A DNA stretch of 53,314 nucleotides, from assembly GCA_023382675.1 (NCBI GenBank), contig JAHDWN010000024.1:1-53314 (forward strand). The letters run 5' to 3'. The position numbers and the translations under genes are program-made. Of the stretch, positions 9,176 to 34,416 are shown piece after piece; positions within the stretch are counted from its first letter, which is position 1; the number at the start of each line of letters is the position of its first letter. The notes under the pieces were generated by a model. That model was not told the origin of the DNA. It did not search any database and saw only the letters and a program-made list of their open reading frames with translations. Origin of the DNA: Anaerolineae bacterium (GTDB taxonomy: Bacteria > Chloroflexota > Anaerolineae > Aggregatilineales > Phototrophicaceae).

Positions 9176-9388
9176 CAAACTAGCGAATTAGCCAGAAGCC
9201 AATACTCAACTGCCAACATTCAAGACCGCAAAGTCCCCTTTCCGAAATCAGAGAGGGCATTTAGAGGTGAGGTGAAATGGCCGGAAGCAAATTAGTCGAT
9301 TAGCGAATTACACATCAGCTAAAAGCCGACAGCCGATAGCCGAATGCCAATAGCCAACCGCCAATACCCAAAGACCAACAGCCAGGCA
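9176..9388 (+). repeat. composite repeat: two heptad arrays flanking a short palindromic core, upstream of moeA
   Basis: Left part (9176-9225): units such as agccaga, agccaat, actcaac, tgccaac. Middle (9227-9262): gcaaagtcccctttccgaaa and then tcagagagggcattt. Right part (9286-9388): a gcaaattagtcgattagcga leader, then agctaaa, agccgac, agccgat, agccgaa, tgccaat, agccaac, cgccaat, acccaaa. The same three-part arrangement occurs around 38276-38476 with the core inverted. It ends at the moeA start, so it forms the moeA 5' region. Confidence 0.7.
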
Positions 9389-9394
9389 ATGACC

Positions 9395-10639
9395 ATGAGC
9401 AGGACACCGGAATTCTTCAACGTGCAGCCGGTGAGGGCGGCGCTGGAGGCGCTGTTCGCCCAGTGGACACCACAGCCACGCCGCGAGATGCGCGATCCAC
9501 GCGCGGCGCTCGGCTGTGTGCTCGCCACGGAACTGCGCTCGCCCATCGACCTGCCGGAGTTCGCGCGCAGCACCGTCGATGGCTATGCCGTGCGCGCGGC
9601 GGATACCTTCGGCGCGTCGCAGTCCCTGCCAGCCTATCTGGCGTGCGTCGGCAGCGTCGCCATGGGCGAGCGCGCGGCGGTCACGGTCGGCACGGCGCAG
9701 GCGGCGGAGATCCACACCGGCGGGATGCTGCCGCCCGGCGCGGACGCCGTCATTATGATCGAGCGCACACAGACGATCGGCGAAGATGAACTCGAAGTGC
9801 TGCACCCGGTCGCGCCCGGCGAGAATGTCATCCAGATCGGCGAGGACGTGGCGCGCGGCGCGACGATCCTGCCCGCCGGGCACAGGCTGCGCCCACAGGA
9901 CATCGGCGGGCTGCTGGCGGTCGGCCTCACCGCGATCGCGGTCGCTGCCCCGCCGCGCATCGGCATCCTGAGTTGCGGCGACGAACTCGTCGCGCCGGAG
10001 GAGACGACTGCGCCAGGGCAGATCCGCGACATCAACGCGCACACGCTGGCGGCGCTGGTGACGCAGGCGGGCGGCGAGGCTGTGCTGCTCGGCATCGCCC
10101 GCGACACGTTCGACGATTACCTGGCGCGGGCGCGCGCCGCTTTCGCGGCGGTCGATCTGCTGGTGATGACGGCAGGCAGCTCGGTTTCGACGCGCGACTG
10201 GACACGTGCGGTCATCGACGCGCTCGGCGCGCCGGGCGTGCTCCAGCATGGGCTGGCCGTCAAGCCGGGCAAGCCGACGCTGATTGGGCTGGCGGCGGGC
10301 AAGCCGGTCATCGGCCTGCCGGGCAATCCGGTGTCGGCGCTGCTCGTCGCCCGCCAGATCGTCACGCCGCTGATCCAGCGGCTGCTCGGCGCAGCGCCGT
10401 GCCCGCGCATGAGCATCCAGGCGACGCTGGCAGCCAGCATTCCGTCTGCAACCGGGCGCGAGGACAGCGTGCCCGTATGCCTGAGCGAGCGCGACGGCGT
10501 GCTCATGGCCGAGCCGATCTTCGGCAAGTCGAATCTGATCTTTACGTTGATGCGCGCCGACGGGCTGGTGCGTGTGCCGCTCAACAGCAACGGCCTGCCC
10601 GCCGGAACGTTAGTCGAGGTGAATCCGTTCGATGCGTGA
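9395..10639 (+). CDS. moeA: molybdopterin molybdenumtransferase MoeA (first copy)
   Basis: A 414-residue MoeA that inserts molybdate into adenylated molybdopterin. The conserved segments are STVDGYAVRAADT (N-terminal substrate motif), LPPGADAVIMIERTQ, PPRIGILSCGDELV, a TAGSSVSTRDWTR stretch in the MogA-like domain and KPVIGLPGNPVSALLV. ATG 9395 is taken because AGG at 9384-9386 is then 8 bases away. ATG 9389 is an alternative two codons upstream, and the frame is open further back through repeat DNA. The gene shares 8 bases (10632-10639) with a second MoeA-like gene. Confidence 0.9.
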   Translation: MSRTPEFFNVQPVRAALEALFAQWTPQPRREMRDPRAALGCVLATELRSPIDLPEFARSTVDGYAVRAADTFGASQSLPAYLACVGSVAMGERAAVTVGTAQAAEIHTGGMLPPGADAVIMIERTQTIGEDELEVLHPVAPGENVIQIGEDVARGATILPAGHRLRPQDIGGLLAVGLTAIAVAAPPRIGILSCGDELVAPEETTAPGQIRDINAHTLAALVTQAGGEAVLLGIARDTFDDYLARARAAFAAVDLLVMTAGSSVSTRDWTRAVIDALGAPGVLQHGLAVKPGKPTLIGLAAGKPVIGLPGNPVSALLVARQIVTPLIQRLLGAAPCPRMSIQATLAASIPSATGREDSVPVCLSERDGVLMAEPIFGKSNLIFTLMRADGLVRVPLNSNGLPAGTLVEVNPFDA

Positions 10640-12542
10640 CATATACCTGGAAGACATCCCGCTGGACGAGGCGCGCGCGCGGCTGCTGAACGCAGCCAAC
10701 CCACAGCCGCTGCCCGGCGAAAGCGTCCCCCTGAGCGAGGCGTTGGGGCGCGTGACCGCCGAGCCGATCTTCGCGGCGATCTCGTCGCCGCACTATCATT
10801 CGTCAGCCATGGATGGCTATGCCGTGCAGGCACAGGCCACGACCGGCGCGACCGAGACCCGCCCGCTGCGGCTGGCGCTCGGCACGCAGGCGCAGCCGGT
10901 CAACACCGGTGATCCGCTGCCCGCCGGGACGAATGCCGTCATCATGATCGAAGATGTGCAGCAGGTCGCTGACGACGCCATCGAAATCCGCGCGCCGGTC
11001 GTGCCTTACCAGCACGTGCGGCTGATGGGCGAGGACATGGTCGCGACCGAGCTTGTCTTGCCTGCCAATCACCGGATTCGCCCGGTCGATCTCGGCGCAA
11101 TGGCGGGCTGCGGTCACGCCCAGGCCAGCGTCCGCCGCCGCCCGCGCGTGATCATCATCCCGACCGGCAGCGAACTGATCGCACCAACCGAGCGCCCCGC
11201 ACCGGGGCAGATCGTCGAGTACAACAGCCTGATGCTGCGCGCGCAGGTGATCGAGAGCGGCGGCGCGGCGGACGTGACGGCCATCGTCCCCGACGACCGC
11301 GACCGCCTGCGCACGGCCATCCAGGCAGCACTGGCCGAGCAGCCGGATCTGCTGCTGGTGCTGTCCGGCTCGTCGGCGGGCAGCCGCGATTTCACCGCCT
11401 CGATTGTGCGCGAATTGGGTGAACTGCTGGTGCATGGCGTGGCCGTACGCCCTGGCCACCCGGTCATCATTGGCGCAATCGGCAGCGTGCCATTGATCGG
11501 CGTGCCCGGCTACCCGGTGAGCGCGGCGCTGACCGGCGAGTTGTTCGTGCAGCCGCTGCTGGCACGCTGGCTCGGCCTCGATGCCACGGTCGAAGATCAA
11601 CCGCGCACGCAGGCGATCACGACCCGCAAGCTGACCTCGCCCACCGGAGACGACGATTTCGTGCGCGTGACGCTGGCGCGCGTCGGCGAGCGGCTGCTGG
11701 CGGCCCCGCTCAATCGCGGCGCAGGCGTGATCACATCGCTGGTGCGCGCGGATGGCCTGGCGCTGATCCTGCGCTTCAGCGAGGGCGTCGATGCCGGGCA
11801 AGCAGTCGAGGTGCGGCTCTACCACTCGCTGCGCACGATCGAGCGCACGGTCGCCGTCGTCGGCAGTCACGACCCGATGATCGATCTGCTGGCGCAGTTC
11901 CTGGCCGTGCGCTATCCCGGCGACCGGCTGACCTCGGCGGGCGTCGGCTCGGTTGGCGGGCTGGTCGCGCTGCGCCGTCAGGAGGCGCACATCGCCGGGT
12001 CGCACCTGCTCGACACCGAAACAGGCGAGTACAACTTCTCCTACGTCGCGAAGTATCTACCGGGCATCGCCGTGCGCCTGATCACCTTCGCGCATCGCGA
12101 GCAGGGCTTTTATGTCCAGCCGGGTAACCCGCACGGCGTGCATAACTTCGGCGATCTGCCGCGGGTGCGCTTCGTCAACCGGCAGCGTGGGGCAGGCACG
12201 CGCGTCCTGCTCGACTACGAACTCGGCCAGCGCGGCATCGCGCCGGAGAGCATCGCCGGCTACGAACGCGAGGAGAACACCCATCTGGCGGTGGCGGCGG
12301 CTGTCGCCTCCGGCATGGCCGACTGCGGCATGGGCGTCCGCAGCGGCGCGCTGGCGCTCGGCCTGGAATTTGTCGCGATCGGCTGGGAGCGGTACGATCT
12401 GGTCATCCCGCACGCGCATCTCGATCACCCCGGCGTGCAGCACGTGATCGCCCTGCTGGATGACGCCGAATTCCGCGCCGCGCTCGGCGCACAGCCCGGC
12501 TACGATACGCGCGAGACGGGCACGATCCAATTGGACACGTAG
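10632..12542 (+). CDS. MoeA-like protein fused to a C-terminal periplasmic-binding-protein-like domain
   Basis: A 636-residue protein. Residues ~1-400 are a full MoeA (SSAMDGYAVQAQA, LPAGTNAVIMIED, RPRVIIIPTGSELI, LSGSSAGSRDFT, PLIGVPGYPVSAALTG). Residues ~410-630 form a PBP/LysR-substrate-like domain: VVGSHDPMIDLLAQFLA, then GSVGGLVALRRQEAHIAGSH, FVNRQRGAGTRVLLDYEL and ASGMADCGMGVRSGA. Such fusions are known in archaea and anaerobic bacteria; the second domain resembles molybdate/tungstate-type binding folds. Its role (metal choice, or sensing) is inference. It overlaps moeA, so the two are made together, which suggests complementary functions, perhaps for different cofactor metals. Confidence 0.88.
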   Translation: MRDIYLEDIPLDEARARLLNAANPQPLPGESVPLSEALGRVTAEPIFAAISSPHYHSSAMDGYAVQAQATTGATETRPLRLALGTQAQPVNTGDPLPAGTNAVIMIEDVQQVADDAIEIRAPVVPYQHVRLMGEDMVATELVLPANHRIRPVDLGAMAGCGHAQASVRRRPRVIIIPTGSELIAPTERPAPGQIVEYNSLMLRAQVIESGGAADVTAIVPDDRDRLRTAIQAALAEQPDLLLVLSGSSAGSRDFTASIVRELGELLVHGVAVRPGHPVIIGAIGSVPLIGVPGYPVSAALTGELFVQPLLARWLGLDATVEDQPRTQAITTRKLTSPTGDDDFVRVTLARVGERLLAAPLNRGAGVITSLVRADGLALILRFSEGVDAGQAVEVRLYHSLRTIERTVAVVGSHDPMIDLLAQFLAVRYPGDRLTSAGVGSVGGLVALRRQEAHIAGSHLLDTETGEYNFSYVAKYLPGIAVRLITFAHREQGFYVQPGNPHGVHNFGDLPRVRFVNRQRGAGTRVLLDYELGQRGIAPESIAGYEREENTHLAVAAAVASGMADCGMGVRSGALALGLEFVAIGWERYDLVIPHAHLDHPGVQHVIALLDDAEFRAALGAQPGYDTRETGTIQLDT

Positions 12543-12772: not shown

Positions 12773-13258
12773 ATGACCGAAAAGACACTCGTCACCCAGC
12801 CGCCGAGCGGATGGCTGCGCTTAGCGCTGCGCCTGCCGCTGGTGCTCTACCGGCTCAGGCTCGGCTGGCTGCTCGGCGAGCGCTTCCTGCGCCTGTATCA
12901 CGTCGGGCGCAAGACCGGCCAGGTGCGCGAGACGGTCGTCGAAGTCGTCCACCACGACCAACTGGGCAATATCTACTATATCGTCTCCGGCTGGGGATAT
13001 AAGGCGCAGTGGTATCAAAACCTGATGGCGATGCCGGACGTGGTCATCCAGGTCAGCAGCCGCCGTTGGGAGGTGACGGCGGAAACGCTGCCCCCGGAAC
13101 TGGGCGCGGACATCCTGATCAAATATCGCACCCAGCATCCACGCGCGGCGGGCGAACTGAGCCGCGTGATGGGCATCAACATCGCCCGCACCTCGCCGAC
13201 CGGGTTGATCGACATCGTGCGCGAGTCACTGCCGGTGATCGCGCTGCGTCCGCGTTAG
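12773..13258 (+). CDS. DDN-like (deazaflavin F420H2-dependent) nitroreductase family protein
   Basis: A 161-residue protein with an AAGGA ribosome site just before ATG 12773. It matches the F420H2-dependent reductase (Ddn/DUF385) family: YHVGRKTGQVRETVVEVV near residues 42-59, IYYIVSGWGYKAQWYQNLMA in the middle, and IQVSSRRWEVTAETL. These proteins form a split beta-barrel that binds coenzyme F420 and reduces quinones or nitro compounds. If functional, it implies that the cell makes or takes up F420. A hydrophobic N-terminal stretch (LRLALRLPLVLYRLRLGWLL) suggests membrane association. Its stop lies one base from the converging thioredoxin gene. Confidence 0.8.
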   Translation: MTEKTLVTQPPSGWLRLALRLPLVLYRLRLGWLLGERFLRLYHVGRKTGQVRETVVEVVHHDQLGNIYYIVSGWGYKAQWYQNLMAMPDVVIQVSSRRWEVTAETLPPELGADILIKYRTQHPRAAGELSRVMGINIARTSPTGLIDIVRESLPVIALRPR

Positions 13259-13259
13259 C

Positions 13260-13673
13260 TCACCTTCTCCATCGCCGTCTCGATCTGCGGCGCAGCACGG
13301 CGAGCGAGGCCACCCCACGGTTAACGTACTGCGGTCGCAGCTGCCCATCGAGCACGAACGTCGTCGGCGCGGAGAACACCCCCCAGCGATCCGACGCCGC
13401 CGTGTCTTCTGCCGCATTGACGCGGACGACGCGCAGTCGCTGGCCGAGCAGCGTCTCCAGCTCCGCCAGCACCGGCTGCTGCTGAGTCTTGCATGGGACG
13501 CAGAACGGCGTCGAGAAATAGACAATCGTCGGCGTGCCCTGGGCGACATCCGCCAGCAGCGGATCGACGGGCGCACGTGTCGCCAGCCGCCGCAGCGTCC
13601 AGCGGTTGTAGAGCACCCAGGCGGCGATCATGACGGCGGCGAAGACAATGACGATGAGTGCGCGTTCGAGCAT
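13260..13673 (-). CDS. membrane-anchored thioredoxin-like protein
   Basis: A 137-residue protein starting at ATG 13673, with AGGAAG 7 bases ahead. One transmembrane helix (ALIVIVFAAVMIAAWVLYNR) is followed by an extracytoplasmic thioredoxin fold with the active site FSTPFCVPCKTQ (C58, C61) and the cis-Pro loop SAPTTFVLDG. The likely role is thiol-disulfide exchange outside the membrane. It pairs with the DUF4395 membrane gene upstream (13823-14284), as in actinobacterial thiX-type operons. The C-terminus reads as an arginine run (RRRSRRRWRR). One base shift near 13287 would instead give QIETAMEKVS and a stop at 13255, which looks more native. Confidence 0.8.
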   Translation of the reverse strand: MLERALIVIVFAAVMIAAWVLYNRWTLRRLATRAPVDPLLADVAQGTPTIVYFSTPFCVPCKTQQQPVLAELETLLGQRLRVVRVNAAEDTAASDRWGVFSAPTTFVLDGQLRPQYVNRGVASLAVLRRRSRRRWRR

Positions 13674-13718
13674 GATCGATCTTCCTTGTTGCAATCTCAG
13701 CCTACTACGTTTGAATGA

Positions 13719-13787
13719 GTCCCCTCCCTTTCATCCCCTCCCCATCGCGATGGGGAGGGGACGAACCGCAGGTTCAGGGGTGGGGAT
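13719..13787. repeat. GC-rich palindromic repeat (ccccTCCCCATCG/CGATGGGGAgggg), copy 1
   Basis: A perfect 26-bp palindrome at 13735-13760 (ccccTCCCCATCG and its complement) is flanked by cccctccc and by a caggttcaggggtgggg tail. A second copy lies at 39215-39286. It lies in the gap between the DUF4395 and thioredoxin genes, which are otherwise a candidate operon, so it could affect their shared transcript. Confidence 0.75.
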
Positions 13788-13822
13788 GAAGAAACGCTTA
13801 AGCCATTGCCCCTAAATCTGCA

Positions 13823-14284
13823 CTAGGACCGGGCGACGGGCGCGTGAACGAAACCGGGGACGCCAAGGCGGTGCAGTTGGTAGTACATCAGGCAGCCGAC
13901 GCAGACCCCGGCGAACAGGTTGAGCGCCGCCAGCGCGACGACCAACCAGCTCAAGCCCCAGCCGAGCGTGCTTGACCCGGCAGCGAAGGCCAGCGTCGCC
14001 ACCAGCAGCACCAGCCCGCCGACCAACTGCGCGAACAGGTGCGGCTCTGGATGATCCAGCTTGACATCCGGGCGGACGATGCCCGCCGGTTTGAGCACGT
14101 GCTGGTAGATGCGCTTGAACAAACCTGCCTGCGGGAACAGCGTCCCGACCAGCATAACGGCGGCGACGAACATCACCAGCGCCGGCGCATTGAGCACGAA
14201 GCCGAGTACCAGCAGGCCGATAATGAAGGCCTGGTTGGTGCGCAGTGCGCTGTGATCGACACGTCTTTCGGTTGTATCAGCCAT
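13823..14284 (-). CDS. DUF4395 membrane protein
   Basis: A 153-residue integral membrane protein with about four helices (IIGLLVLGFVLNAPALVMFV, VAAVMLVGTLFP, LVGGLVLLVATLAFAAG, LSWLVVALAALNLFAGV). The family signs are VDHSALRTNQAF near the N-terminus and GVCVGCLMYYQLHRLGV, a cysteine pair, near the C-terminus. An AGGAGA ribosome site precedes ATG 14284. DUF4395 genes are commonly paired with thioredoxin-like and thiosulfate sulfurtransferase genes. The function is uncertain, with thiol or sulfur handling at the membrane a reasonable inference. The gene is preceded by a Cys-rich leader ORF and terminator (see 14375-14508). Confidence 0.82.
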   Translation of the reverse strand: MADTTERRVDHSALRTNQAFIIGLLVLGFVLNAPALVMFVAAVMLVGTLFPQAGLFKRIYQHVLKPAGIVRPDVKLDHPEPHLFAQLVGGLVLLVATLAFAAGSSTLGWGLSWLVVALAALNLFAGVCVGCLMYYQLHRLGVPGFVHAPVARS

Positions 14285-14374
14285 GGTCTTTGCTCTCCTG
14301 AGATAGTTCTGCGTGCCTGCTTTGTAGTTCGCGCCGGGCTGATTGCCGCCAGCCCAGCGCCTGCGATCAGCAAC

Positions 14375-14401
14375 AAAAAAGCCCCGGTGGTATGCCGGGG
14401 C
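14375..14401 (-). terminator. intrinsic terminator (attenuator) ahead of DUF4395-thioredoxin
   Basis: Read on the minus strand, gccccgg (14401-14395), a 7-base loop and ccggggc (14387-14381) form a perfect 7-bp GC stem followed by six U (14380-14375). It lies between the Cys-rich leader ORF stop (14428) and the DUF4395 start (14284), so it must be read through for the operon to be expressed. The RNA bases complementary to 14382-14391 can instead pair with leader-ORF bases at 14449-14463. Confidence 0.9.
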
Positions 14402-14427
14402 TTCGTGCTGACATGCCTATCTGGCTG

Positions 14428-14508
14428 TTAGCAACACAAATCCGAGCGACCACCTGCCGGGGGTGCTTTGCGCATACAACACATACACATGGCAAAGCGC
14501 GGATTCAT
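14428..14508 (-). CDS. Cys-rich leader peptide (26 residues), putative attenuator uORF
   Basis: The small ORF starts at ATG 14508 with an AAGGTGA ribosome site 4-5 bases upstream. The peptide begins MNPRFAMCMCCMRKA, continues PPAGGRS and ends DLCC: five Cys in 26 residues, three of them clustered at positions 8, 10 and 11 and two at the very end. An in-frame ATG at 14535 is an alternative start with a weaker site. A short translated ORF with clustered codons for one amino acid, followed at once by an intrinsic terminator, is the classic form of a transcription attenuator, here for cysteine. In mycobacteria, polycysteine short ORFs are reported upstream of DUF4395/thiX operons, the same downstream genes. 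Confidence 0.75.
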   Translation of the reverse strand: MNPRFAMCMCCMRKAPPAGGRSDLCC

Positions 14509-14553
14509 GTTGTCACCTTGTGTGACGGATACCATTCCATCAAGACGCCGCAG

Positions 14554-14581
14554 ATTATAAAGGCCGATGCGCATCTGTCAA
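14554..14581 (-). promoter_or_regulatory. consensus sigma-70 promoter of the Cys leader-DUF4395 unit
   Basis: On the minus strand TTGACA (14581-14576) and TATAAT (14559-14554) are perfect hexamers separated by 16 bases. The expected transcript start is near 14546-14547, about 38 bases before the leader ATG at 14508. The promoter lies just past the stop of the DUF4058 gene (14595), which is on the same strand, so the leader and operon have their own transcription start. Confidence 0.82.
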
Positions 14582-14594
14582 ATTTTGCTGCGAA

Positions 14595-15581
14595 TCAATT
14601 TCCGCTCACAAGCACAGCCAGTCGCCGCAGCGCCTCATCCAGATCCAGATGCTCGTATTCGCCGATCTGGATCGTCGCCGTATCGGGATCGACGCCGCGC
14701 GCGACCGCCTCGCACACAGCCAGCATCCGGCGGGCAATCCGCGCCTGATCGAATGGGCTGTAGTGATCGAAATTCAGCGGGAAGCGGGCATAATCGACGC
14801 TGCGCCCGTACAGACTCTCCTCGAACGTCTTGCGATAGGGCACATCCAGGTCGAAGTCGAGGCTGTCCTCGCCGCTCAGGGGGATATTGACCCTGGGCAG
14901 CGGATCATCGACGTGAAACGGGATTACGTCGCCCCAACCGGACTCCAGCGCCGGACGTGGATCGATGACGACCACGCGGTAAGGATGCGGGCGCAGCGCC
15001 AGTTTCGTGCTTTGCAGCCCGCGATAATTGGGCAGCGCCGCCAACGTCGGCGGGGTTTCGTGCAGGTAGTCCAGTTCGACAAACACGATCCCGGCGTGCA
15101 AGACATCCATACGCTTGGCGTGGTAGACCTCGGCGTCATCGCCGATCTTGTTGCTCGGCGATAGCAGTTCTATCCAGGCGACGGGCGTGCCGCGCGCAGC
15201 CTGATCTGGTCGCAGGCGATAAATGGCAAGCGCGCGGAAAGGGGTTTCGCTCACTGGATCTTCCGCCAACAATTCCATCGCCGGATAACGAAAGGCGCCT
15301 GACTTCAGCGACTGGACGGTCGCAGGGGCAGGATCAGGCTGGGTATCGTAGACCAGCACGTCTGCGCGCGGATTCCGGGCAGAGCCTTCAATGCGCCGGA
15401 TTTGCAGCGAGTCTTCAATCTCGGCGTCGTAACCGATTGGCAGCAGTTGGGCGCGCAGCGTCTTGTAGAGATCGCTGATCTGGTTGGTGTGGAAGCCGCT
15501 CCAGCCGCTTTCCGCCTGCCACAGGCTGTGCAAATGCGCGTTGATACCGCGATACAGATTGTGGATCGAATGGATCGGCAT
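14595..15581 (-). CDS. DUF4058 family protein
   Basis: A 328-residue soluble protein of the DUF4058 family, common in cyanobacteria and Chloroflexota. Typical traits are the N-terminal HSLWQAESGWSGFHTNQIS region, the central TPVAWIELLSPSNKIGDD (a pattern recalling nuclease-fold Uma2-like proteins), KRMDVLHAGIVFVELDYLHE and a C-terminal YRKTFEESLYGRSVDY. The function is unknown in the family, and relation to the PD-(D/E)xK fold is only suggested by the E-LxSPSNK pattern. Neighbours on both sides do not indicate a pathway. The gene is probably monocistronic, given the promoter and terminator around it. Confidence 0.75.
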   Translation of the reverse strand: MPIHSIHNLYRGINAHLHSLWQAESGWSGFHTNQISDLYKTLRAQLLPIGYDAEIEDSLQIRRIEGSARNPRADVLVYDTQPDPAPATVQSLKSGAFRYPAMELLAEDPVSETPFRALAIYRLRPDQAARGTPVAWIELLSPSNKIGDDAEVYHAKRMDVLHAGIVFVELDYLHETPPTLAALPNYRGLQSTKLALRPHPYRVVVIDPRPALESGWGDVIPFHVDDPLPRVNIPLSGEDSLDFDLDVPYRKTFEESLYGRSVDYARFPLNFDHYSPFDQARIARRMLAVCEAVARGVDPDTATIQIGEYEHLDLDEALRRLAVLVSGN

Positions 15582-15754
15582 CGTTCGTTGACTCGATTTT
15601 TCTTGATTATAGCGCGAATTGCGTTGTCACTTGCCCGCCCGCTCGATGAGATCAGCCTGGATCACCACACGACCAAAACGACATAGAGCGAAAATACTGT
15701 ACGCTATAGGCGCGAGCAGTCTTCAGAAGCAAAGCAGCAGAGAGGAAGAGATCC

Positions 15755-18060: not shown

Positions 18061-19293
18061 TCAGAGTGTTGCCAGCGCCTGCGCGAAATCCGCCAGCAGA
18101 TCGGCGGTGTCTTCGATGCCGGTCGAGAAGCGCACAAGATTATCCGGCACGCCCTGCGCCAGCCGCTCCTCAGGCGTGAGATCGTAGTGGCTCATGAGCG
18201 CGGGCTGCTGGATCAGGCTCTCGACGCCGCCCAGGCTCGGCGCGATGTAGGGGATGCGCAGCCGGTCGATGAAGGCGCTCGTACGCGCCCGATCACCGCG
18301 CACCGTGAAGGTGACGACGCCGCCGAAGCCCTGCATCTGCGCCCGCGCGACGGCGTGATCCGGGTGCGACTCCAGCCCTGGATACCAGACGCGCTCGATG
18401 GCCAGGTGCGCTTCGAGATAGCGCGCCAACGCCAGCGCCGACTCGTTCTGCTGTTTGATGCGCACGCCGAGCGTCTTCAGCCCGCGGTCGAGCAGATAGG
18501 CCGCGCCCGGATCGACAATGCCGCCGAGCAAGCCGCGGCTCTCACGCAGCGCAGCCATGCGATCCGCGCGCCCGATGATGACGCCCGCCAGCAGGTCGTT
18601 GTGCCCGGCGAGGAACTTGGTCGCGCTGTGCATGACGAAGTCGATGCCGAAGTCGAGCGGACGCTGATTGACCGGCGTCGCGAACGTGCTGTCAACGAAC
18701 GTGCGCACGCGCTGGCGCTTGCCGATCTCCGCCAGCCGCGCCAGATCGACCACGCGCCCGTAAGGATTGGTCGGGCTTTCGGAAATGATCAGGCGCGTCT
18801 GCTTGGGGATGATGGCGGCTTCGAGCGCGCCGTAATCGCCCATCGGCACGACGGTCGTCTCGACGCCATAACGCTTGAGGAAGCCGAGGCAGAATTCGTG
18901 CGTGTGGCGGTAGATGTCGTCGCCGATGATGACGTGCGCGCCCGGCGCGAGCATCGTCAGCAGCGCCGAGCTGACCGCCGACATGCCGGAGGGATAGAGC
19001 ACAGCTGCCTCGCCACCATCGAGCGCGGCCAGCTTCGCCTCGACCTGCGCGACCGTCGGGTTGCCATAGCGCCCGTACTCCTCGCGGGCAGCGCCGCCGC
19101 GATACTTCTGCGCCATGTAGCTCGCCACGTCGTCTGAATCGCGGAAGGTGAAGGTGGCGGATTGCAGGATCGGCGTCGCCAGCGCGTGGTACGGTTCGTC
19201 GCGGCGTGTGCCGTCGCCGTGGACAGCCGTCGTGCCTGCGCCGCGCGTCGTGCGTTCGGCGTCGGTCGCTTTGCCATTGGATGTGCTGGTCAT
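18061..19293 (-). CDS. PLP-dependent trans-sulfuration enzyme (cystathionine gamma-synthase/lyase or methionine gamma-lyase family)
   Basis: A 410-residue Cys/Met-metabolism enzyme. The PLP lysine is K226 in HSATKFLAGHNDLLAG; other family blocks are EYGRYGNPTVAQVEAKLAAL, YPSGMSAVSSAL, SESPTNPYGRVVDL and SLGGVESLIQQPALMSHYDL. Such enzymes interconvert homocysteine, cystathionine and cysteine, or degrade methionine. The specific reaction cannot be set from sequence alone. The start is uncertain: ATG 19293 fits the family length, and ATG 19332 is also open; neither has a clear ribosome site. It is the third sulfur-related locus in this part of the window. Confidence 0.85.
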   Translation of the reverse strand: MTSTSNGKATDAERTTRGAGTTAVHGDGTRRDEPYHALATPILQSATFTFRDSDDVASYMAQKYRGGAAREEYGRYGNPTVAQVEAKLAALDGGEAAVLYPSGMSAVSSALLTMLAPGAHVIIGDDIYRHTHEFCLGFLKRYGVETTVVPMGDYGALEAAIIPKQTRLIISESPTNPYGRVVDLARLAEIGKRQRVRTFVDSTFATPVNQRPLDFGIDFVMHSATKFLAGHNDLLAGVIIGRADRMAALRESRGLLGGIVDPGAAYLLDRGLKTLGVRIKQQNESALALARYLEAHLAIERVWYPGLESHPDHAVARAQMQGFGGVVTFTVRGDRARTSAFIDRLRIPYIAPSLGGVESLIQQPALMSHYDLTPEERLAQGVPDNLVRFSTGIEDTADLLADFAQALATL

Positions 19294-19611
19294 GGGGTTA
19301 CTCGTGCGGGTTAGGCCGTCGTCAGGGCGCATACACTAACGTGGAACGGCGGGAGATGCAAAGAGTCCATCGCCAGGCCTCGGAACACAAGTTGCAACTG
19401 CGCCCGTGTCCGTTTACAGTATGCGGCGGGAGATAGTCCAAGCGAATGGGCACGCGGCGACGACGGCGGTATCCGCGACTCCACACCCCCACGGTTGAAG
19501 ACATGCAGACAGGGCTGCGGAGCTTTCTGCGTCCGTTTCGGGATGCCAGCATGCACGTTCTGCATGGCACGCTTTTGATAATTATGTTTTCACCCAAATA
19601 AGGAGCGTCAT
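19294..19611. other. non-coding gap with a possible transposase remnant
   Basis: There is no intact gene. On the plus strand, 19440-19599 reads RRYPRLHTPTVEDMQTGLRS, then FLRPFR, before diverging. This resembles the C-terminal region of some IS transposases (a 'GLRxFLRPFRG' pattern) and then loses similarity. This is a weak, memory-based match. The remainder holds the upstream region of the PLP gene (-) and the AAGGAG ribosome site for the acylase (+). Confidence 0.3.
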
Positions 19612-23788: not shown

Positions 23789-24084
23789 TCACTCCTATTG
23801 TAGACTCCTATGCTCACAAACGCTCTTCAAAATAGTCTCGAGAATATCAAGAGTCAGTACGAATCTCTAATTCATGAACTTGTTGGTGCAAGTTGGCTGC
23901 TCCCCAATAACGTCTAATTTGATTATCGGTGTCGAGCAAAGATGTGCACAATATGCGCACGGCGCTTGAGACCATCCTGGACAATCTGCAAGACCCGGAT
24001 ACATGAGGATTGTGACATCACACATTTGATGTCCCTCAACCCGCCCGTTGCAATCGCGGCGCATCCGTGTTACCTTGTGCCGCC
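23789..24084. other. AT-rich gap upstream of the JAMM leader
   Basis: No supported gene. A 35-codon ORF on the plus strand at 23810-23917 (begins MLTNALQNSLENIKSQYE) and a 17-codon tail near 23953 (MRTALETILDNLQDPDT) look like coding remnants, but neither has a ribosome site. The composition matches the AT-rich gene 23363-23788, so this may be the edge of an acquired segment. Confidence 0.3.
24048..24076 (+). promoter_or_regulatory. possible promoter of the Cys leader-JAMM unit
   Basis: TTGCAA (24048-24053) and TACCTT (24071-24076) are separated by 17 bases. The expected transcript start near 24083-24085 would coincide with the leader ATG at 24085, allowing leaderless translation. The -10 match is only moderate. 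Confidence 0.35.
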
Positions 24085-24192
24085 ATGCGCCGAGAGACAC
24101 ACTTCCCGACCCCTTTTGCCGTTCCCATGTGCTGTATGGGCATGTGTTACCCGCGCATTCACCAGGGACGTGTCGCGCAGGGGCTGCGCTAG
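24085..24192 (+). CDS. Cys-rich leader peptide ahead of the JAMM/sulfur-carrier genes
   Basis: A short ORF of 35 codons from ATG 24085, or 21 codons from the in-frame ATG 24127. The Cys-dense part reads MCCMGMCYPRIHQGRVAQGL, with Cys at positions 2, 3 and 7 of the short form; it ends at TAG 24190-24192. An intrinsic terminator follows 26 bases later and then the sulfur-metabolism operon. The arrangement mirrors the leader at 14428-14508, with alternating Met and Cys codons. There is no ribosome site for either start, but the 24085 start could be leaderless. Bases 24162-24170, six codons after the last Cys, can pair with the terminator loop. Confidence 0.6.
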   Translation: MRRETHFPTPFAVPMCCMGMCYPRIHQGRVAQGLR

Positions 24193-24218
24193 CCCCGTCT
24201 GCTGCTCAAGCGCAGATC

Positions 24219-24246
24219 AAGCCAACCCGTCCCGGTTGGCTTTTTT
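24219..24246 (+). terminator. intrinsic terminator (attenuator) ahead of the JAMM gene
   Basis: gccaacc (24221-24227), loop cgtccc, ggttggc (24234-24240) form a 7-bp stem, extended by AA/TT, followed by six T (24241-24246). It lies upstream of the JAMM start at 24271 and after the Cys-rich leader. No other plus-strand gene ends here, so it acts on the leader transcript. Its loop and proximal 3' arm (24228-24235) are complementary to leader bases 24162-24170 with one bulge. Confidence 0.88.
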
Positions 24247-24270: not shown

Positions 24271-24702
24271 ATGAACATCGAGCTTTTGCGGACGCTGCAA
24301 GCGCGCATCTTCGACCAGTTGGAAGCGGGCTACCCGAACGAGGCGGGCGGCTTCCTGCTCGGCAAACTGCGCGGTGACACCGTCATCATCGACGACGTGG
24401 TGCCGATCGAGAACGTCTTCGCGGCGGAGGAGCAGCATCACCGTTACACCATGACGCCGCAGGACTGGATGCGCCTGGAAGACGAGGCCGAGGCGCGCGG
24501 CCTGGCGCTCGTCGGCTACTACCACAGCCACCCGGATTCGCCCGCTTTCCCGTCGGAATTCGACCGCGACCGGGCGATGCCGAACTTCGCCTACTTGATT
24601 ACGTCGGTCATGCGTGGCCGCGCGACCGAGATGCGCGGCTGGCGGCTGGTCACAGACCATTCGCGTTTCGAGAGTGAACCTATCCTGCTCCGTGAGTTCT
24701 GA
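24271..24702 (+). CDS. JAMM/Mov34 (M67) metallopeptidase, Mec-like
   Basis: A 143-residue zinc peptidase. The JAMM motif is complete: E24, then H85-S-H87, S95 and D98 in YYHSHPDSPAFPSEFD. AGAGGAA lies about 10 bases before ATG 24271. In Mycobacterium the homolog Mec removes cysteine from the sulfur carrier CysO; others cleave ubiquitin-like proteins. The next gene, 15 bases downstream, encodes a ThiS/MoaD-ThiF-rhodanese fusion whose carrier GG is internal. So this peptidase may release cysteine from the loaded carrier, cut the fusion after GG, or both. The leader/attenuator upstream suggests that its expression responds to cysteine supply. Confidence 0.88.
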   Translation: MNIELLRTLQARIFDQLEAGYPNEAGGFLLGKLRGDTVIIDDVVPIENVFAAEEQHHRYTMTPQDWMRLEDEAEARGLALVGYYHSHPDSPAFPSEFDRDRAMPNFAYLITSVMRGRATEMRGWRLVTDHSRFESEPILLREF

Positions 24703-24717
24703 TCCCAAGGAGACTCC

Positions 24718-26232
24718 ATGCCCACGATCAAAATCCCGACCCCGCTGCGCGCCTTCACCGGCAACCAGTCGCTCGTCACCGTCAGCGGCGCGACCGTCGG
24801 CGACGCGCTGGCCGATCTGGTCACGCAGCACCCGGTGCTCAAGCAGCAGCTTTACGACGATGACACCCTGCGCACGTTCGTCAACATTTTCGTCGGCGAC
24901 GAGGACATGCGCTTCCTCGACGGCGTTGACACCGAGATTGACGCCAACACGCAGATGCGCATCGTCCCGACCATCGCCGGGGGGCACGACGGCGCGGCGC
25001 TGGTCGAGGCCGCGGGCGAGCTGACCAACGACGAGATCCGCCGCTACAGCCGTCACCTGATCATGCCGGAGGTCGGCGTGGACGGCCAGCGCCGCCTCAA
25101 GAATGCCAGCGTCCTGCTGATCGGCACGGGCGGCCTCGGCAGCCCGCTCGCGCTCTATCTGGCGGCGGCGGGCATCGGGCGCATCGGGCTGGTCGATTAT
25201 GATGTGGTGGACGATTCGAATCTTCAGCGCCAGGTCATCCACGGCCAGGCCAGCGTCGGCACGCTCAAAGTGGACAGCGCCGAGGCGCGCATGAAGGACA
25301 TCAACCCGCACTTGCAGGTCGATAAATACAACGTGCCGCTGACCTCGGAGAACGCCATCGAACTGATGACGCCCTACGACGTGATCATTGATGGGACGGA
25401 TAACTTCCCGACCCGCTATCTCGTCAACGATGCCTGCGTCAAGCTCGGCAAGCCGAATGTCTACGGCAGCATCTTCCGCTTCGAGGGCCAGTTGAGCGTC
25501 TTCTATGCCAAGGAAGGCCCGTGCTACCGCTGCATGTTCCCGACACCCCCGCCGCCCGGCCTCGTGCCGAGCTGCGCGGAAGGCGGCGTACTCGGCATCC
25601 TGCCCGGCACGATTGGCACGCTGCAAGCGACCGAGGCGATCAAGCTCATCCTCGGCATCGGCGAGCCGATGATCGGCAAGATGCTGCTCTACGACGCGCT
25701 CGAAATGAGCTTCACCACGCTCAAGGTGCGCAAGAATCCCAACTGCCCCGTGTGCAGCCTCCCGGCGGATCAGGTCGAACTGATCGACTACGAGCAGTTC
25801 TGTGGGATGCCGGCGCACGATCACAGCCTGTACGTATCCAGCAGCAGCGGCAACGGCGCGGCCACCGTCGCCGAGATGAGCGTTCACGAACTAAAGGGAC
25901 GCTACGATGCCGGGCAGCGCGTCGTCGCGGTTGATGTACGCGAGCCGCACGAGTGGGACATCTGCGTGCTGCCGGATGTGCTGCGCATCACCAAGGGTCA
26001 GATCGAGGCGGCCAAGAACGACGTGCTCAGCGGGCGCAGCCGCCGCGAAGATACCGTGCTGGCGAACATCCCGACTGAGGGCGAGGTCGTCTTCATCTGC
26101 CGCAGCGGCGTCCGCAGCGCCCACGCCATCGGCTTCCTGCGCGAGATCGGCTACGGCAACCGGCTGTTCAATCTCACCGGCGGGATGCTCGCCTGGGCGG
26201 GTGAGATCGATCCGTCCGTTCCGACGTACTAG
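24718..26232 (+). CDS. ThiS/MoaD-ThiF/MoeB-rhodanese fusion (sulfur carrier, its activating enzyme and sulfurtransferase)
   Basis: A 504-residue three-domain protein with AAGGAG before ATG 24718. Residues 1-89 are a ubiquitin-like sulfur carrier ending IVPTIAGG (G88-G89). Residues ~100-365 are an E1-like adenylation domain: GTGGLGSP (136-143), zinc pairs CYRC (269/272) and CPVC (343/346), and Cys286 in PSCAEGG. Residues ~385-504 are a rhodanese domain with active Cys461 in ICRSGVRS. The pathway is carrier adenylation, thiocarboxylation by rhodanese sulfur, and use in cysteine (CysO-like), thiamin or molybdopterin synthesis. The carrier GG is internal, so proteolysis is required before adenylation; the adjacent JAMM peptidase is the obvious candidate. 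Confidence 0.9.
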   Translation: MPTIKIPTPLRAFTGNQSLVTVSGATVGDALADLVTQHPVLKQQLYDDDTLRTFVNIFVGDEDMRFLDGVDTEIDANTQMRIVPTIAGGHDGAALVEAAGELTNDEIRRYSRHLIMPEVGVDGQRRLKNASVLLIGTGGLGSPLALYLAAAGIGRIGLVDYDVVDDSNLQRQVIHGQASVGTLKVDSAEARMKDINPHLQVDKYNVPLTSENAIELMTPYDVIIDGTDNFPTRYLVNDACVKLGKPNVYGSIFRFEGQLSVFYAKEGPCYRCMFPTPPPPGLVPSCAEGGVLGILPGTIGTLQATEAIKLILGIGEPMIGKMLLYDALEMSFTTLKVRKNPNCPVCSLPADQVELIDYEQFCGMPAHDHSLYVSSSSGNGAATVAEMSVHELKGRYDAGQRVVAVDVREPHEWDICVLPDVLRITKGQIEAAKNDVLSGRSRREDTVLANIPTEGEVVFICRSGVRSAHAIGFLREIGYGNRLFNLTGGMLAWAGEIDPSVPTY

Positions 26233-30925: not shown

Positions 30926-31399
30926 TTATGTCACGGGCACGCGCAGCAGATCCAACACCGCCTCGCACGCCAGCGGAATCGCCTCCAGCACCGGCGGCGA
31001 CGGCTGCTCGCAAAAATCGAGCACATCGTACGCGGTGATAGCGACGATCTGAATGTCGGCGTCCTCCGGCAGATGCGCACCGAGCGCGCGCCCGATACGC
31101 AGTGCCGTCGGCAGGTCAGCATCGTGGGTGCTGCGCGTGTTCAAGGTCTCTGGCATGTCGCGCGCATCGAAGACCAGGACTTCGCCCCGACGATCGGCCG
31201 GTGCCCACAGCGCGTCGATCAGGATAACGCGGTCGTAATCGACCATCGTTTCCATCAGCCGCAAGCCGCCGACCGAAAGCTCGACCACATCGACCGGAAC
31301 ATCCGGCGGCAGCATCTCGCGCAGCGCACGCACTGCGTAGATGCCAACGCCGTCATCCGTCAGGATCGGGTTGCCCAGGCCAATCACCAAAGTCTTCAT
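30926..31399 (-). CDS. [NiFe]-hydrogenase maturation endopeptidase (HyaD/HycI family)
   Basis: A 157-residue M52 peptidase that trims the C-terminus of the hydrogenase large subunit after nickel insertion. ATG 31399 has AGGACAGG upstream. The family start MKTLVIGLGNPILTDDGVGI is clear; the first acidic Ni contact falls in the DDG segment, then VILIDALWAP gives the second Asp. A His in STHDADLP is likely the third. The gene follows mvhA, whose encoded tail after DPCFSCATH is the expected target, with a start 21 bases inside the mvhA 3' end region. Other maturation genes (hypA-F) are not in the window. Confidence 0.88.
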   Translation of the reverse strand: MKTLVIGLGNPILTDDGVGIYAVRALREMLPPDVPVDVVELSVGGLRLMETMVDYDRVILIDALWAPADRRGEVLVFDARDMPETLNTRSTHDADLPTALRIGRALGAHLPEDADIQIVAITAYDVLDFCEQPSPPVLEAIPLACEAVLDLLRVPVT

Positions 31400-31419
31400 G
31401 CGCCTGTCCTGACTTGCAC

Positions 31420-32895
31420 TCAGGTCGGAGTGCAATACTGCGAACGATGATCGACAATCTCGCCGTGTGCGTCGCGCACAACCAGTTCGAGCGGCATCTG
31501 CCCCGGCAGTGAGTGCGTGGCGCAGCTAAAACACGGGTCGTAGCTGCGGAACGCCATCTCGACCATGTTCAGAATGGCATCGTTGACCACGCCGTCGTGG
31601 ATCAGCGCGTTGGCCGCTTTCTTGATCGTGTACGTGATCGGCGCGAAGTTGTTGGTCGTCCCGACGATCAGGTTGACCTTCGTCAGGATGCCGTTCTCGT
31701 CCGTTTCGTAGTGATGCGTCAGCGTTCCGCGCGGCGCTTCCACCGAGCCGATGCCGACGGTCGGCTTCTCGGTCGGGATCGTGCGCACGTTCGGGCTGGT
31801 GATCTCTGGATCAGTGACCAGCTCGACCATCCGCTCCGCCGCGTACACCAGTTCGACCAGGCGCGCCCAATGCGTCGCCAGTGTGTGATGCACCGGCCTG
31901 CCGCCCAACGTCTTGTAGAACTCCTCATAGGCTTCCTGCGCTTTGGGCGTCGCCATGCCGTCCGCCGCGTTCAGGCGGCTGAGCGGCGTGCAGGCATACA
32001 TGCCTGAGTCCTTGCCGTCCACCAGACCTTTCCAGCCGACGCCTTTCAGGTACGGATACTTCAGGTAGCTGTAGGGTTCGACACGCTCGGCAATGTGTTT
32101 GATGTAATCACGCGGGTCATATTTGACGAACTCGTTGCCGTCCGGATCGACCACGCGGATCATGCCGTCGTAGAAGTTGACTTTGTTCTGCGCGTCCACC
32201 GTGCCCATGTAGTAGGTATGCTGCGTGTAGACATCGCCGACGATCAAATCGACATAAGCCTGATTTTGCAGCACGATGTCGCGGAAGACCTGGAGCGACC
32301 ACAGGCCGAACTCCACATTCTCGCGCGCCACCTCTTCGATGAACTTGCGCTCCTCTTCGTTGATCGCCTTGCTCATCCCGCCCGGCAGCCCGGCGACCGG
32401 ATGGATCGCCCGCCCGCCGATGATCTTGATCACTTCGTGGTTCTTCTTACGTGTGTTGATCACACGCAGGCCGGCTTCCGTGCCAACTTTCGCCACCACG
32501 CCCAGGATGTTGCGTTCGCCGGCGGGCGCGTCTGGCCCGACGACGAAATCCGGCCCACCGAGCGCGTAGAAGTGCGTCGTGTGGTCAGTGCAATAGAAGG
32601 CGCTGTAAAAGAGCTCGCGCAGTTTCTTGGCTGCCGAGGGCGGATCGACCTTGTACAGGTCGTCGAGCGCCTTGCTCGCCGCCATGTGATGCGCCTCCGG
32701 GCAGACGCCGCAGATGCGGTTGGTGATGCGGGGCATCTCCTCTGCCGGGCGGCCCAGGCAAAAGACCTCGAAGCCGCGCAGTTCCGGGATCTGGAAATAC
32801 GTGTTGGCGACATTGCCAGCATCGTCGAGGAAGACCTCGATCTTGCCGTGACCCTCCAGCCGTGTGATCGGGTCAATCGTGATTCGTTGTTTCAT
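31420..32895 (-). CDS. mvhA: [NiFe]-hydrogenase large subunit, Mvh type (group 3c)
   Basis: A 491-residue catalytic subunit. L1 motif RICGVCPEAHH (C62, C65) and L2 motif DPCFSCATH (residues 453-461) supply the four Ni-Fe cysteines. The 30 residues after His461 form the peptide removed at maturation. The N-terminal ITIDPITRLEGHGKIEVFLD and LPGGMSKAINEEERKFIEE are typical of F420-non-reducing (Mvh) and related hydrogenases. ATG 32895 is used; a GTG one codon earlier is possible. It would oxidise H2 and deliver electrons through MvhG and MvhD to HdrA. Gene order mvhD-mvhG-mvhA follows hdrCBA. Confidence 0.92.
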   Translation of the reverse strand: MKQRITIDPITRLEGHGKIEVFLDDAGNVANTYFQIPELRGFEVFCLGRPAEEMPRITNRICGVCPEAHHMAASKALDDLYKVDPPSAAKKLRELFYSAFYCTDHTTHFYALGGPDFVVGPDAPAGERNILGVVAKVGTEAGLRVINTRKKNHEVIKIIGGRAIHPVAGLPGGMSKAINEEERKFIEEVARENVEFGLWSLQVFRDIVLQNQAYVDLIVGDVYTQHTYYMGTVDAQNKVNFYDGMIRVVDPDGNEFVKYDPRDYIKHIAERVEPYSYLKYPYLKGVGWKGLVDGKDSGMYACTPLSRLNAADGMATPKAQEAYEEFYKTLGGRPVHHTLATHWARLVELVYAAERMVELVTDPEITSPNVRTIPTEKPTVGIGSVEAPRGTLTHHYETDENGILTKVNLIVGTTNNFAPITYTIKKAANALIHDGVVNDAILNMVEMAFRSYDPCFSCATHSLPGQMPLELVVRDAHGEIVDHRSQYCTPT

Positions 32896-32905
32896 CACAG
32901 CCCCC

Positions 32906-33934
32906 TCAGGTCTTCAGCTTCGGGTCGAGGTGCGGCACTTCTTCCAGCGGCTGCGCCCGGCGGTCGCCGTTTTCGCGCACCAGCGCCGTCCGTCGGAGCA
33001 TCGAGTGCGCCAGGCCGAACCGGTAGAAGTAACCGGCGGGGTCGGGCAGCGTATCCAGAACGGCGTCGATCTCCTCCGGCGTCTTGGCGTCGATGACCGA
33101 GCCGATAGCGCTGATCATGCGCGCGCCGCCATCGACCACATCGACGTTCGGGCCATAACAGCCACGGCAGCCCATGTTGACCGATGGACACAACGCCCCA
33201 CAACCCGCACGGGTAGCGATCCCCATGCACAGCAGCCCTTGATCGAGCAGGCACTTGTTGGGATCAGGGATGATCTCTTGCGGGCGGTAAAAGCGCTTGA
33301 TCTTCTTTTCCTCGCGCTCGCGTGGGCACTCGTCACACACGGTCACGTCCATACCGATGACCGAGCCGGGCGGCGGCAGTTGGCCGCTCATAATCGCTTC
33401 GACCGCCGCCTGAGTCCACTTGGCCTCTGGCGGGCAGCCCGGCAGGTAATAATCGACCGGCACGACCTGATCGAGCGTCTTGACGGTGTCCCAGTACGCC
33501 GGCAGCGTCAGTGTGCCTTCCGGCACGGTGGTCTGTGGCTGCGGCTCGACACCCTCTGGATTATCGACGGTCGGCGCATCGTGGTAGATGTACTGCATCA
33601 TATGCTTGCGGTCGGCGAAGTTCGCCAGGCCGGGGATGCAGCCTTCCATCGCGCAGCTTCCATATGCGACCAGCACCTTGCTCTTCTTGCGCAGGAGATG
33701 CGCCATCTCGGCGTTCTCCTCGGTGCGAATCGCCCCGTTGAAGAGCGTCACGTCGATTTCGCCGTCCGCCATCGCCGCGACATCGGCTTTCTTGAAGTCG
33801 AGCACGCACGGCCAGAAGACGAGATCGAACGCGGCGGCGACATCCAGGATCTTTTCGTGGATCGCCAGGATCGCGATTTCGCAGCCGCCGCACGAAGACG
33901 CCCAGTAGACTGCCAGTTTCGGTTTCGCGCTCAT
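32906..33934 (-). CDS. mvhG: [NiFe]-hydrogenase small subunit, Mvh type
   Basis: A 342-residue electron-transfer subunit. The proximal cluster site is SSCGGCE (C15, C18) with further ligands in YGSCAMEGC and LPGCPPE. The second half holds Cys-rich segments for medial and distal clusters (DECPRERE; CLLDQGLLCMG; GCGALCPSVNMGCRGCYGP). No Tat signal is present, so the enzyme is cytoplasmic, as expected for group 3c. ATG 33934 overlaps the mvhD stop (ATGA), and the next gene starts 10 bases after its end. Slightly longer than methanogen MvhG because of a charged C-terminus. Confidence 0.92.
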   Translation of the reverse strand: MSAKPKLAVYWASSCGGCEIAILAIHEKILDVAAAFDLVFWPCVLDFKKADVAAMADGEIDVTLFNGAIRTEENAEMAHLLRKKSKVLVAYGSCAMEGCIPGLANFADRKHMMQYIYHDAPTVDNPEGVEPQPQTTVPEGTLTLPAYWDTVKTLDQVVPVDYYLPGCPPEAKWTQAAVEAIMSGQLPPPGSVIGMDVTVCDECPREREEKKIKRFYRPQEIIPDPNKCLLDQGLLCMGIATRAGCGALCPSVNMGCRGCYGPNVDVVDGGARMISAIGSVIDAKTPEEIDAVLDTLPDPAGYFYRFGLAHSMLRRTALVRENGDRRAQPLEEVPHLDPKLKT

Positions 33935-34416
33935 AACGGCACTCCCTCTTCTTGGTGCGGCGCAGTCTCTTCGAGATTGTCGCGCCATTGCATCGGGCCG
34001 AGCCGGGCCACCTTCTCCGTCATCTCTTTGACAGTCTCGGTGAAGATGCCGCCCTGCGCGGCGGATGCCCAGGCAAGCTGCACCCGATCCGGATGGACGC
34101 CCAACTGCGCCAGCGTGCGCTGAAGCAGCGCGATCCGGCGCATGGCTTTGTAGTTGCCCTCCTCGTAGTGGCACTGGCCGGGATGGCAGCCCATCACCAG
34201 CACGCCGTCCGCGCCTTCACGCAGCGCCTTGACGACGAAGGTCGGGTCGAGGCGGCCCGTACACATGATGCGAATATCGCGCAGAGTCGCCGGGTAGCCG
34301 AAGCGGCTCGTGCCCGCGAGATCTGCCGCGCGATACGAACACCAGTTGCACAGGAAGCCAATGATCACGGGTGCGCGGTCGCCCCATGCAGGATTGAATT
34401 GACTATAGTCGGCCAT
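33931..34416 (-). CDS. mvhD: methyl-viologen-reducing hydrogenase delta subunit (MvhD)
   Basis: A 161-residue [2Fe-2S] protein that links the hydrogenase to HdrA. ATG 34416 has GGGAGG about 10 bases upstream. The MvhD signature is FLCNWCSYRAADLAGTSRF, followed by RIMCTGRLDPTFVVKALREG and VMGCHPGQCHYEEGNYKA: five conserved Cys for the cluster. The frame starting at 34440 includes eight extra codons without a site. Its position between hdrA and mvhG is the standard arrangement for the MvhADG-HdrABC electron-bifurcating complex. Confidence 0.92.
   Translation of the reverse strand: MADYSQFNPAWGDRAPVIIGFLCNWCSYRAADLAGTSRFGYPATLRDIRIMCTGRLDPTFVVKALREGADGVLVMGCHPGQCHYEEGNYKAMRRIALLQRTLAQLGVHPDRVQLAWASAAQGGIFTETVKEMTEKVARLGPMQWRDNLEETAPHQEEGVPL

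Follow-up and report, generated by a model that had tools for sequence, protein, structure and literature searches.

Attenuators of the trp, his and ilv operons combine a leader peptide containing regulatory codons with a terminator and an antiterminator that are mutually exclusive. Leaderless short ORFs encoding polycysteine were reportedly described in mycobacteria by Canestrari et al. in 2020, and such ORFs occur in several copies per mycobacterial genome. As far as the available portions of the cited publications go, the mycobacterial ORFs have been described as translation attenuators (PMC9031893, PMC13236596); leader peptides with Cys runs have been predicted upstream of cys operons in Actinobacteria, where no conserved terminator hairpins were found and the authors suggest a role of Rho (Seliverstov et al. 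2005, PMC1262725); and the uORFC-8-2 motif, reported before cysS in Rhodobacterales only, is a predicted ribosome-mediated Cys attenuator in which two tandem Cys codons of the uORF are followed by an intrinsic terminator (PMC8632094).

The DNA analysed here (the window) is a 53,314-nucleotide stretch from an Anaerolineae bacterium of the phylum Chloroflexota. It carries two leaders upstream of sulfur genes. On the computed parts, conservation, covariation and fold switch, we infer ribosome stalling, sensing of Cys (and Met) and read-through, and each leader is very probably a ribosome-mediated transcription attenuator. Like the mycobacterial ORFs, these leaders are short ORFs with a Cys run before cysteine genes, look leaderless in most cases and occur in several copies per genome. 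Unlike what is available of the mycobacterial accounts, they have intrinsic terminators, a covarying antiterminator and Met codons, and belong to another phylum. With uORFC-8-2 they share Cys codons in a uORF, an intrinsic terminator and predicted ribosome-mediated attenuation, but they precede DUF4395 or JAMM genes in Chloroflexota rather than cysS in Rhodobacterales, and the available part of the uORFC-8-2 account mentions neither Met codons nor sulfur-carrier operons (PMC8632094). The Actinobacterial leaders, as summarized, share the Cys-run peptides and differ in being without conserved terminators (PMC1262725). In contrast to the trp, his and ilv attenuators, Cys is joined here by Met codons, and the antiterminator segment, which pairs with the hairpin apex, tends to sit between the codon cluster and the stop codon.

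Given the Actinobacterial, mycobacterial and uORFC-8-2 precedents, the principle is already known. In the open-access literature searched, which leaves out most subscription papers, no account of a Chloroflexota Cys or Met leader was found; as far as it shows, the novelty lies in the joint occurrence of this taxon, these targets, a leaderless-looking start and mixed Cys/Met codons. A preliminary description of one of the two leaders had held that an independent transcription-attenuation version in Chloroflexota would be new. A Cys leader with an intrinsic terminator has a predicted precedent in uORFC-8-2, as that motif is outlined (PMC8632094). The prediction extends amino-acid attenuation to Chloroflexota, and with 91 JAMM and four DUF4395 leaders, and covariation examined on 78, it provides a large comparative set for cysteine transcription attenuation.

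Two leaders in the window

The first leader (copy 1) occupies 14375-14581 of the minus strand, upstream of genes for a DUF4395 protein (13823-14284; PF14340, 1.8e-31) and a thioredoxin-like protein (13260-13673; PF00085, 1e-7), both on the same strand. To our knowledge, no function has been assigned to DUF4395. Promoter 1 (14554-14581) agrees with the consensus at 12 of 12 positions, with TTGACA at 14581-14576, a 16-nt spacer and TATAAT at 14559-14554. Both boxes and the spacing are kept in two relatives (G031 and G032), and 13000-15600 contains two promoter-like sites in all, this one included (mean in shuffles, 0.7). An SD-like AAGGTG (14514-14519) stands 5 nt ahead of leader ORF 1 (14428-14508; ATG at 14508, TAA ending at 14428), whose 26 codons specify MNPRFAMCMCCMRKAPPAGGRSDLCC, with Cys at codons 8, 10, 11, 25 and 26. 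Promoter and ORF are thus exactly as first described. Codons 7-12 (14473-14490) read Met-Cys-Met-Cys-Cys-Met; the emphasis originally placed on Cys overlooked the Met codons. Leader ORF 1 has no Pfam match.

The intrinsic terminator (14375-14404) consists of a stem (14404-14378), a 7-nt loop and U6. It lies where it had been placed, with seven GC pairs and the U6 run, but its stem of 9-10 pairs is slightly longer than was first given, and the hairpin ends about 94 nt ahead of the DUF4395 ATG. The antiterminator segment CCCCCGGCAGGUGGU (14449-14463), recognized by pairing, a swap test and folding, can pair with the terminator loop and 3' arm through GGUGGU (14454-14449) with ACCACC (14391-14386) and CCCC (14463-14460) with GGGG (14385-14382). 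This proposed register was confirmed in the sequence and, when forced, folds at -37.2 kcal/mol. At its C-terminus (13260-13330, minus strand), the thioredoxin-like ORF passes into an Arg-rich tail suggestive of a frameshift or an assembly error.

A structured leader and a terminator ahead of Cys/Met genes could also represent a metabolite riboswitch or a T-box in which the ORF is accidental, and the copy 1 leader RNA does fold more stably than its shuffles (z -3.8; 0/200). Nevertheless, Rfam covariance models at gathering scores gave no match in the window and, in five related loci, none except one tRNA, and the conserved feature is the in-frame codon content, which makes such an element extremely improbable. 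The pattern TGYATGTGYTGY occurs at six places in the genome, including copy 1, and misses copy 2; none of the other five places is a Cys-rich ORF followed by a terminator.

The second leader (copy 2; 24048-24246) lies on the plus strand, about 10 kb from copy 1. Promoter 2 (24048-24076), recognized by eye, reads TTGCAA, 16 nt, TTACCT with an upstream TG and fits the family pattern TTGC / TGnTAnnnT. Leader ORF 2 (24085-24192), encoding MRRETHFPTPFAVPMCCMGMCYPRIHQGRVAQGLR, appears nearly leaderless judged by the promoter position. Its regulatory codons, Met-Cys-Cys-Met-Gly-Met-Cys (24127-24147), are followed by antiterminator segment 2 (24161-24178), whose core GGGACG (24165-24170) pairs with CGUCCC (24228-24233), and by intrinsic terminator 2 (24219-24246). 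Downstream, also on the plus strand, are a JAMM (Prok-JAB-like) protease gene (24271-24702; 62% identity to the JAMM of locus L033, which matches PF14464; A1, 1.1e-65) and a ThiS-ThiF-rhodanese fusion gene (24718-26232). Since copy 1 precedes DUF4395-thioredoxin and copy 2 precedes JAMM, the parts of the operon are apart here, each with its own switch. The genome G031 likewise carries both a DUF4395 and a JAMM leader. Two copies per genome would place sulfur-carrier and thiol-redox genes in a small regulon directed by ribosomes.

Several other genes of the window were noted by eye. One at 18061-19332 (minus strand) resembles a PLP enzyme of Cys/Met metabolism, and the Cys-cluster scan found no leader with a terminator ahead of it. 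Two neighbouring long ORFs at 9344-12542 (plus strand) resemble MoeA-type molybdopterin genes, and genes at 30926-34174 (minus strand) resemble the large and small subunits of a NiFe hydrogenase and a maturation protease.

Leaders of sulfur-carrier operons in related genomes

The attenuator first proposed for DUF4395-thioredoxin corresponds to copy 1, but such a leader is not peculiar to that gene pair: the common target is JAMM-ThiS-(MetY-MetX)-(DUF4395-Trx)-ThiF, and the window itself holds a second copy. The earlier reading is largely right, but copy 1 exemplifies a system that extends further. In 68 loci (488,796 bases), a search for Cys-cluster ORFs followed by a terminator no more than 60 nt away returned 22 cases. 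The first ORF picked downstream of 14 of 23 leaders belongs to one aligned family, whose first member matches Prok-JAB (JAMM protease). Across 60 loci, surveyed with one query per gene and some of them cut by contig ends, the gene order is JAMM-[rhodanese]-[MetY-MetX]-ThiS-[GNAT]-[DUF4395-Trx]-ThiF, with the bracketed genes variable. This JAMM-ThiS-MetY/MetX operon resembles the CysO/Mec+ cysteine route together with thiocarboxylate-based homocysteine synthesis. The operons are composed of sulfur-carrier, Cys and Met genes, and two hallmarks of an attenuator are found: codons for the product amino acid are clustered in the leader ORF, and an intrinsic terminator lies between the leader and the first gene.

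JAMM genes were detected in 122 of 154 genomes of the order (E <= 1e-30), with readable upstream sequence for 120, of which one (G011) has just 82 nt. A strict automatic scan recovered a leader and terminator before 74/120, with the reading frame wrong for at least G004, G014, G018 and G046. A relaxed scan (ATG start, at least two Cys in 10 codons, terminator at most 70 nt past the stop) recovered them before 91/120, with at least three Cys in 77 of these. For two sister-related cases (G046 and G047), the relaxed-scan ORF differs from the one common to a sister genome; both were kept among the 91, and their geometry was taken from the shared ORF. By family, leaders precede 81/90 JAMM genes in the window's own family (f1), 6/8 in f5 and 4/5 in f3. 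The 12 of these 103 loci in which no leader was detected, some through detection limits or short sequence, include four (G009, G061, G072, G090) where a Cys-rich ORF is visible but fails one criterion, as well as G011 with its 82 nt. The control families f2 (0/10), f4 (0/1), f6 (0/4) and f61 (0/2) gave a total of 0/17 JAMM leaders, and JAMM may be operon-internal there. From the JAMM matches across the class, 40 loci were taken, five of which fell inside the order; the remaining 35, outside it, showed no leader, JAMM possibly not being the first gene there.

Could promoter, Cys-rich ORF and terminator have come together by chance? Shuffle tests for single leaders are weak, which leaves some room for this idea. 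Against it stand the same ORF-terminator search in controls, which returned 1, 0, 0, 0 and 0 cases in five dinucleotide shuffles and none in the reversed sequence vs 22 in the real loci, the 91/120 JAMM leaders, and the preference for the own terminator in swaps and the fold switch (both below). Chance has a negligible probability.

DUF4395 is present in 51 of 98 genomes of the window's family. A scan of GTDB contigs yielded 21 DUF4395 loci, the closest from an Anaerolineae bacterium (83%); 19 of the 21 are titled Chloroflexi/Chloroflexota, Anaerolineae, Anaerolineales, Aggregatilineales or Thermoflexales, and two Acidimicrobiia. According to the preliminary description, mycobacterial polycysteine ORFs reportedly precede the same gene family; of the 14 in a PF14340 control, the four genomes named with a match include no mycobacterium. 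Many other genomes have DUF4395 inside a longer operon with the leader at the operon head. Where DUF4395 is the first gene (G031, G032, G008), the layout of copy 1 recurs and each leader has its terminator, a recurrence that the preliminary description had proposed to look for. The encoded peptides are MNPRFAMCMCCMRKAPPTGGRTDLCCL (G031), MSQRHAIAICMCCCLYNQTAGGCTLRCG (G032) and MFALIASRPLSISNACCCMCCHLDSPWSGAA (G008). Cys-Met-Cys-Cys of copy 1 is kept in the first two, and G008 has CCCMCC. The G008 leader has little sequence in common with the window, and still CCCTGGagTGGG past its Cys cluster complements CCCACCAGGG in its terminator. Absence of conserved Cys codons or of the alternate pairing had been named as grounds for abandoning the model; in relatives the cluster is kept and the segment complements its own terminator though both change. 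Shared control would tie DUF4395 to the sulfur-carrier regulon. At L070:5728-6441, ThiS and DUF4395 are fused in a single reading frame, a hint that DUF4395 may work with a sulfur carrier.

These peptides also bear on the proposal that the ORF encodes a working small Cys/Met-rich protein, binding metal or thiols, next to an incidental terminator. A peptide of this kind beside thiol genes would be plausible. However, by eye the peptides of different genera are hardly alike save for Cys and Met, the part past the Cys cluster tracks RNA complementarity, and the leader 1 product, as noted, resembles no Pfam family, so that a functional protein is very improbable.

Alternative pairing, folding and geometry of the leader RNA

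Pairing was examined in 78 leaders, comprising the 74 JAMM leaders of the strict scan, the few wrong frames included, and the four DUF4395 copies. The RNA between the Cys cluster and the terminator prefers its own terminator (RNAduplex mean -24.0 vs -20.9 kcal/mol; 0/20,000 permutations). Similarly, the local complementarity score is 1928.5 vs 1714 +/- 30 for swaps within groups (three genera as groups, the remainder pooled; 0/20,000), and the paired portion of the hairpin is centred on its apex. Tested singly against shuffles of the segment, 21/78 leaders reach p<=0.05 and 13/78 p<=0.01; the window copies do not (copy 1, p = 0.105; copy 2, p = 0.215). A mutually exclusive antiterminator is thus kept by covariation in the set as a whole, with a weak signal for single leaders. 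Since the pairing of copy 1 alone is non-significant, its support comes from the family and from the fold switch.

Folded with and without a ribosome footprint, copy 1 displays the predicted switch. The terminator forms in the full leader and also when a ribosome occupies the stop codon. Placing the ribosome on Cys 8, 10 or 11 yields, as the minimum-energy structure, an antiterminator in which both terminator arms are taken up (-42.9, -39.5 and -39.5 kcal/mol, respectively), and placing it on Cys 25 or 26, the second Cys pair (14431-14436, minus strand), yields the terminator. A head-tail helix joins the start-codon region and the ORF end in the copy 1 fold. Copy 2 likewise folds into the terminator, whether the full leader is free or a ribosome sits at its stop, and the antiterminator (-36.8 kcal/mol) appears with the ribosome on Cys 21 only, the terminator staying with Cys 16 or 17. 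With the ribosome at the last Cys of the cluster, shuffled segments abolished the terminator in 0/40 cases for each window copy.

The fold set comprised 93 leaders: 89 JAMM leaders (G046 and G047 excluded) and the four DUF4395 copies. The terminator keeps at least half of its stem pairs in 88/93 full leaders and in 92/93 with the ribosome at the stop. It is lost on stalling in 17/93 vs 3.2 expected (maximum of 20,000 simulations, 11), and the whole switch is seen in 15/93. At equilibrium it survives stalling in 76/93, including the DUF4395 copies of G031, G032 and G008, so that most members, these copies included, need co-transcriptional timing. When transcription has reached one third of the 3' arm, half or more of the arm and loop is covered by the antiterminator in 86/93 vs 49.4 expected (maximum 68); this nascent antiterminator forms without any ribosome in 65/93.

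The gap from stop codon to terminator has a median of 33 nt (5-95%, 23-46; minimum 14; n=91), and that from the last Cys codon to the antiterminator segment a median of 14 nt (IQR 10-19.5; n=78); the segment mostly sits between the Cys cluster and the stop codon. Judged from the footprint size, the terminator would stay accessible in nearly all leaders once the ribosome has reached the stop, and a stall at the last Cys would keep the segment accessible in many. For copy 1 it had been supposed that a ribosome reaching the end covers the segment. Its footprint would reach back to about 14444 only, so that 14463-14449 would not be covered; more likely, the segment has already been passed or is held by leader pairing, and the terminator is clear.

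Alignment of 89 leaders on the ATG shows peaks of TTGC at -36 to -33, TG at -16/-15, TA at -13/-12, T at -8 and C at -1. TAnnnT ends 5-9 nt ahead of an in-frame ATG before the cluster in 82/91 leaders vs 12.0 expected from upstream-shifted positions. With the usual promoter spacing, transcripts of most leaders would start on the AUG or no more than a few bases away from it; copy 1, with its ordinary SD site, is an exception to this leaderless-looking majority. Resemblance of such Cys-run ORFs to the mycobacterial ones, as far as these are described in the available account (PMC9031893), favours translation attenuation, in which stalling would expose the ribosome-binding site of the following gene and the hairpin would not act as a terminator. 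Yet a run of four or more T, which was a search criterion, follows the hairpins of the curated set, and their stems end 19-72 nt ahead of the gene start (about 94 nt in copy 1), which fits termination better; translation attenuation appears improbable.

With layout and RNA pairing kept in many relatives, the leader very likely switches sulfur genes on when cysteine is short. In the transcription attenuator proposed, RNA polymerase would start just ahead of the short ORF, with a ribosome following it. When Cys-tRNA (and perhaps, in many relatives, Met-tRNA) is charged, the ribosome would pass the Cys/Met codons, with the segment either passed as well or sequestered by pairing within the leader; the terminator would then fold, and transcription would end ahead of DUF4395-thioredoxin in copy 1 and of JAMM-ThiS-ThiF-rhodanese in copy 2. 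Under a shortage of charged Cys-tRNA, the ribosome would stall on the cluster, and the segment starting some 10-20 nt downstream would stay free to pair with the loop and upper arms at the apex of the terminator hairpin, allowing the polymerase to read through.

Methionine codons in the leaders

Inside the Cys clusters of 47 leaders, Met accounts for 80/198 non-Cys residues vs 2/74 in the 27 leaders of one genus (g22 without G062) and 26/874 residues after the clusters, counts that include the wrong strict-scan frames. Some leaders are mostly Met, for example MMCMSCMPMMMGMC in G012. Association with MetY was examined in 56 of the 60 operons, four (G001, G011, G020, G356) having been left out because they had no leader or no ThiS. 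Two or more Met in a 14-codon Cys window were found in 24/27 operons with MetY vs 15/29 without it (Mann-Whitney on leader Met counts, 1.4e-5; with g22 left out, 15/19, p 0.0026), statistics that ignore relatedness. Exceptions occur in both directions: G039, G051 and G054 have MetY and one Met, and G035, G056, G221 and G396 lack MetY and have 4-5 Met. That Met is a mere by-product of the sequence was considered; the MetY link, relatedness again ignored, argues against this.

Because Met codons crowd the Cys runs outside one genus, most of all before MetY operons, many leaders may sense Met as well as Cys, which is about an even bet. This raises a case for a leader peptide that senses methionine besides cysteine. 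The fuller proposal of a dual sulfur-amino-acid attenuator falls slightly short of an even chance: a single ribosome would monitor the two charged tRNAs and thereby control thiocarboxylate-based Cys/Met operons, Met codons being fewer where the operon has no Met branch. This might be the first known case of methionine sensing by a ribosome-mediated attenuator, and it would have originated independently of the mycobacterial system, in transcripts that are largely leaderless. Leader sequences can mark Cys/Met-responsive operons in uncultured genomes. As regards codon choice, Cys codons in leaders of the relaxed set are mainly TGT (256 TGT vs 133 TGC); four long ORFs of the window prefer TGC (1 TGT, 10 TGC, a small sample).
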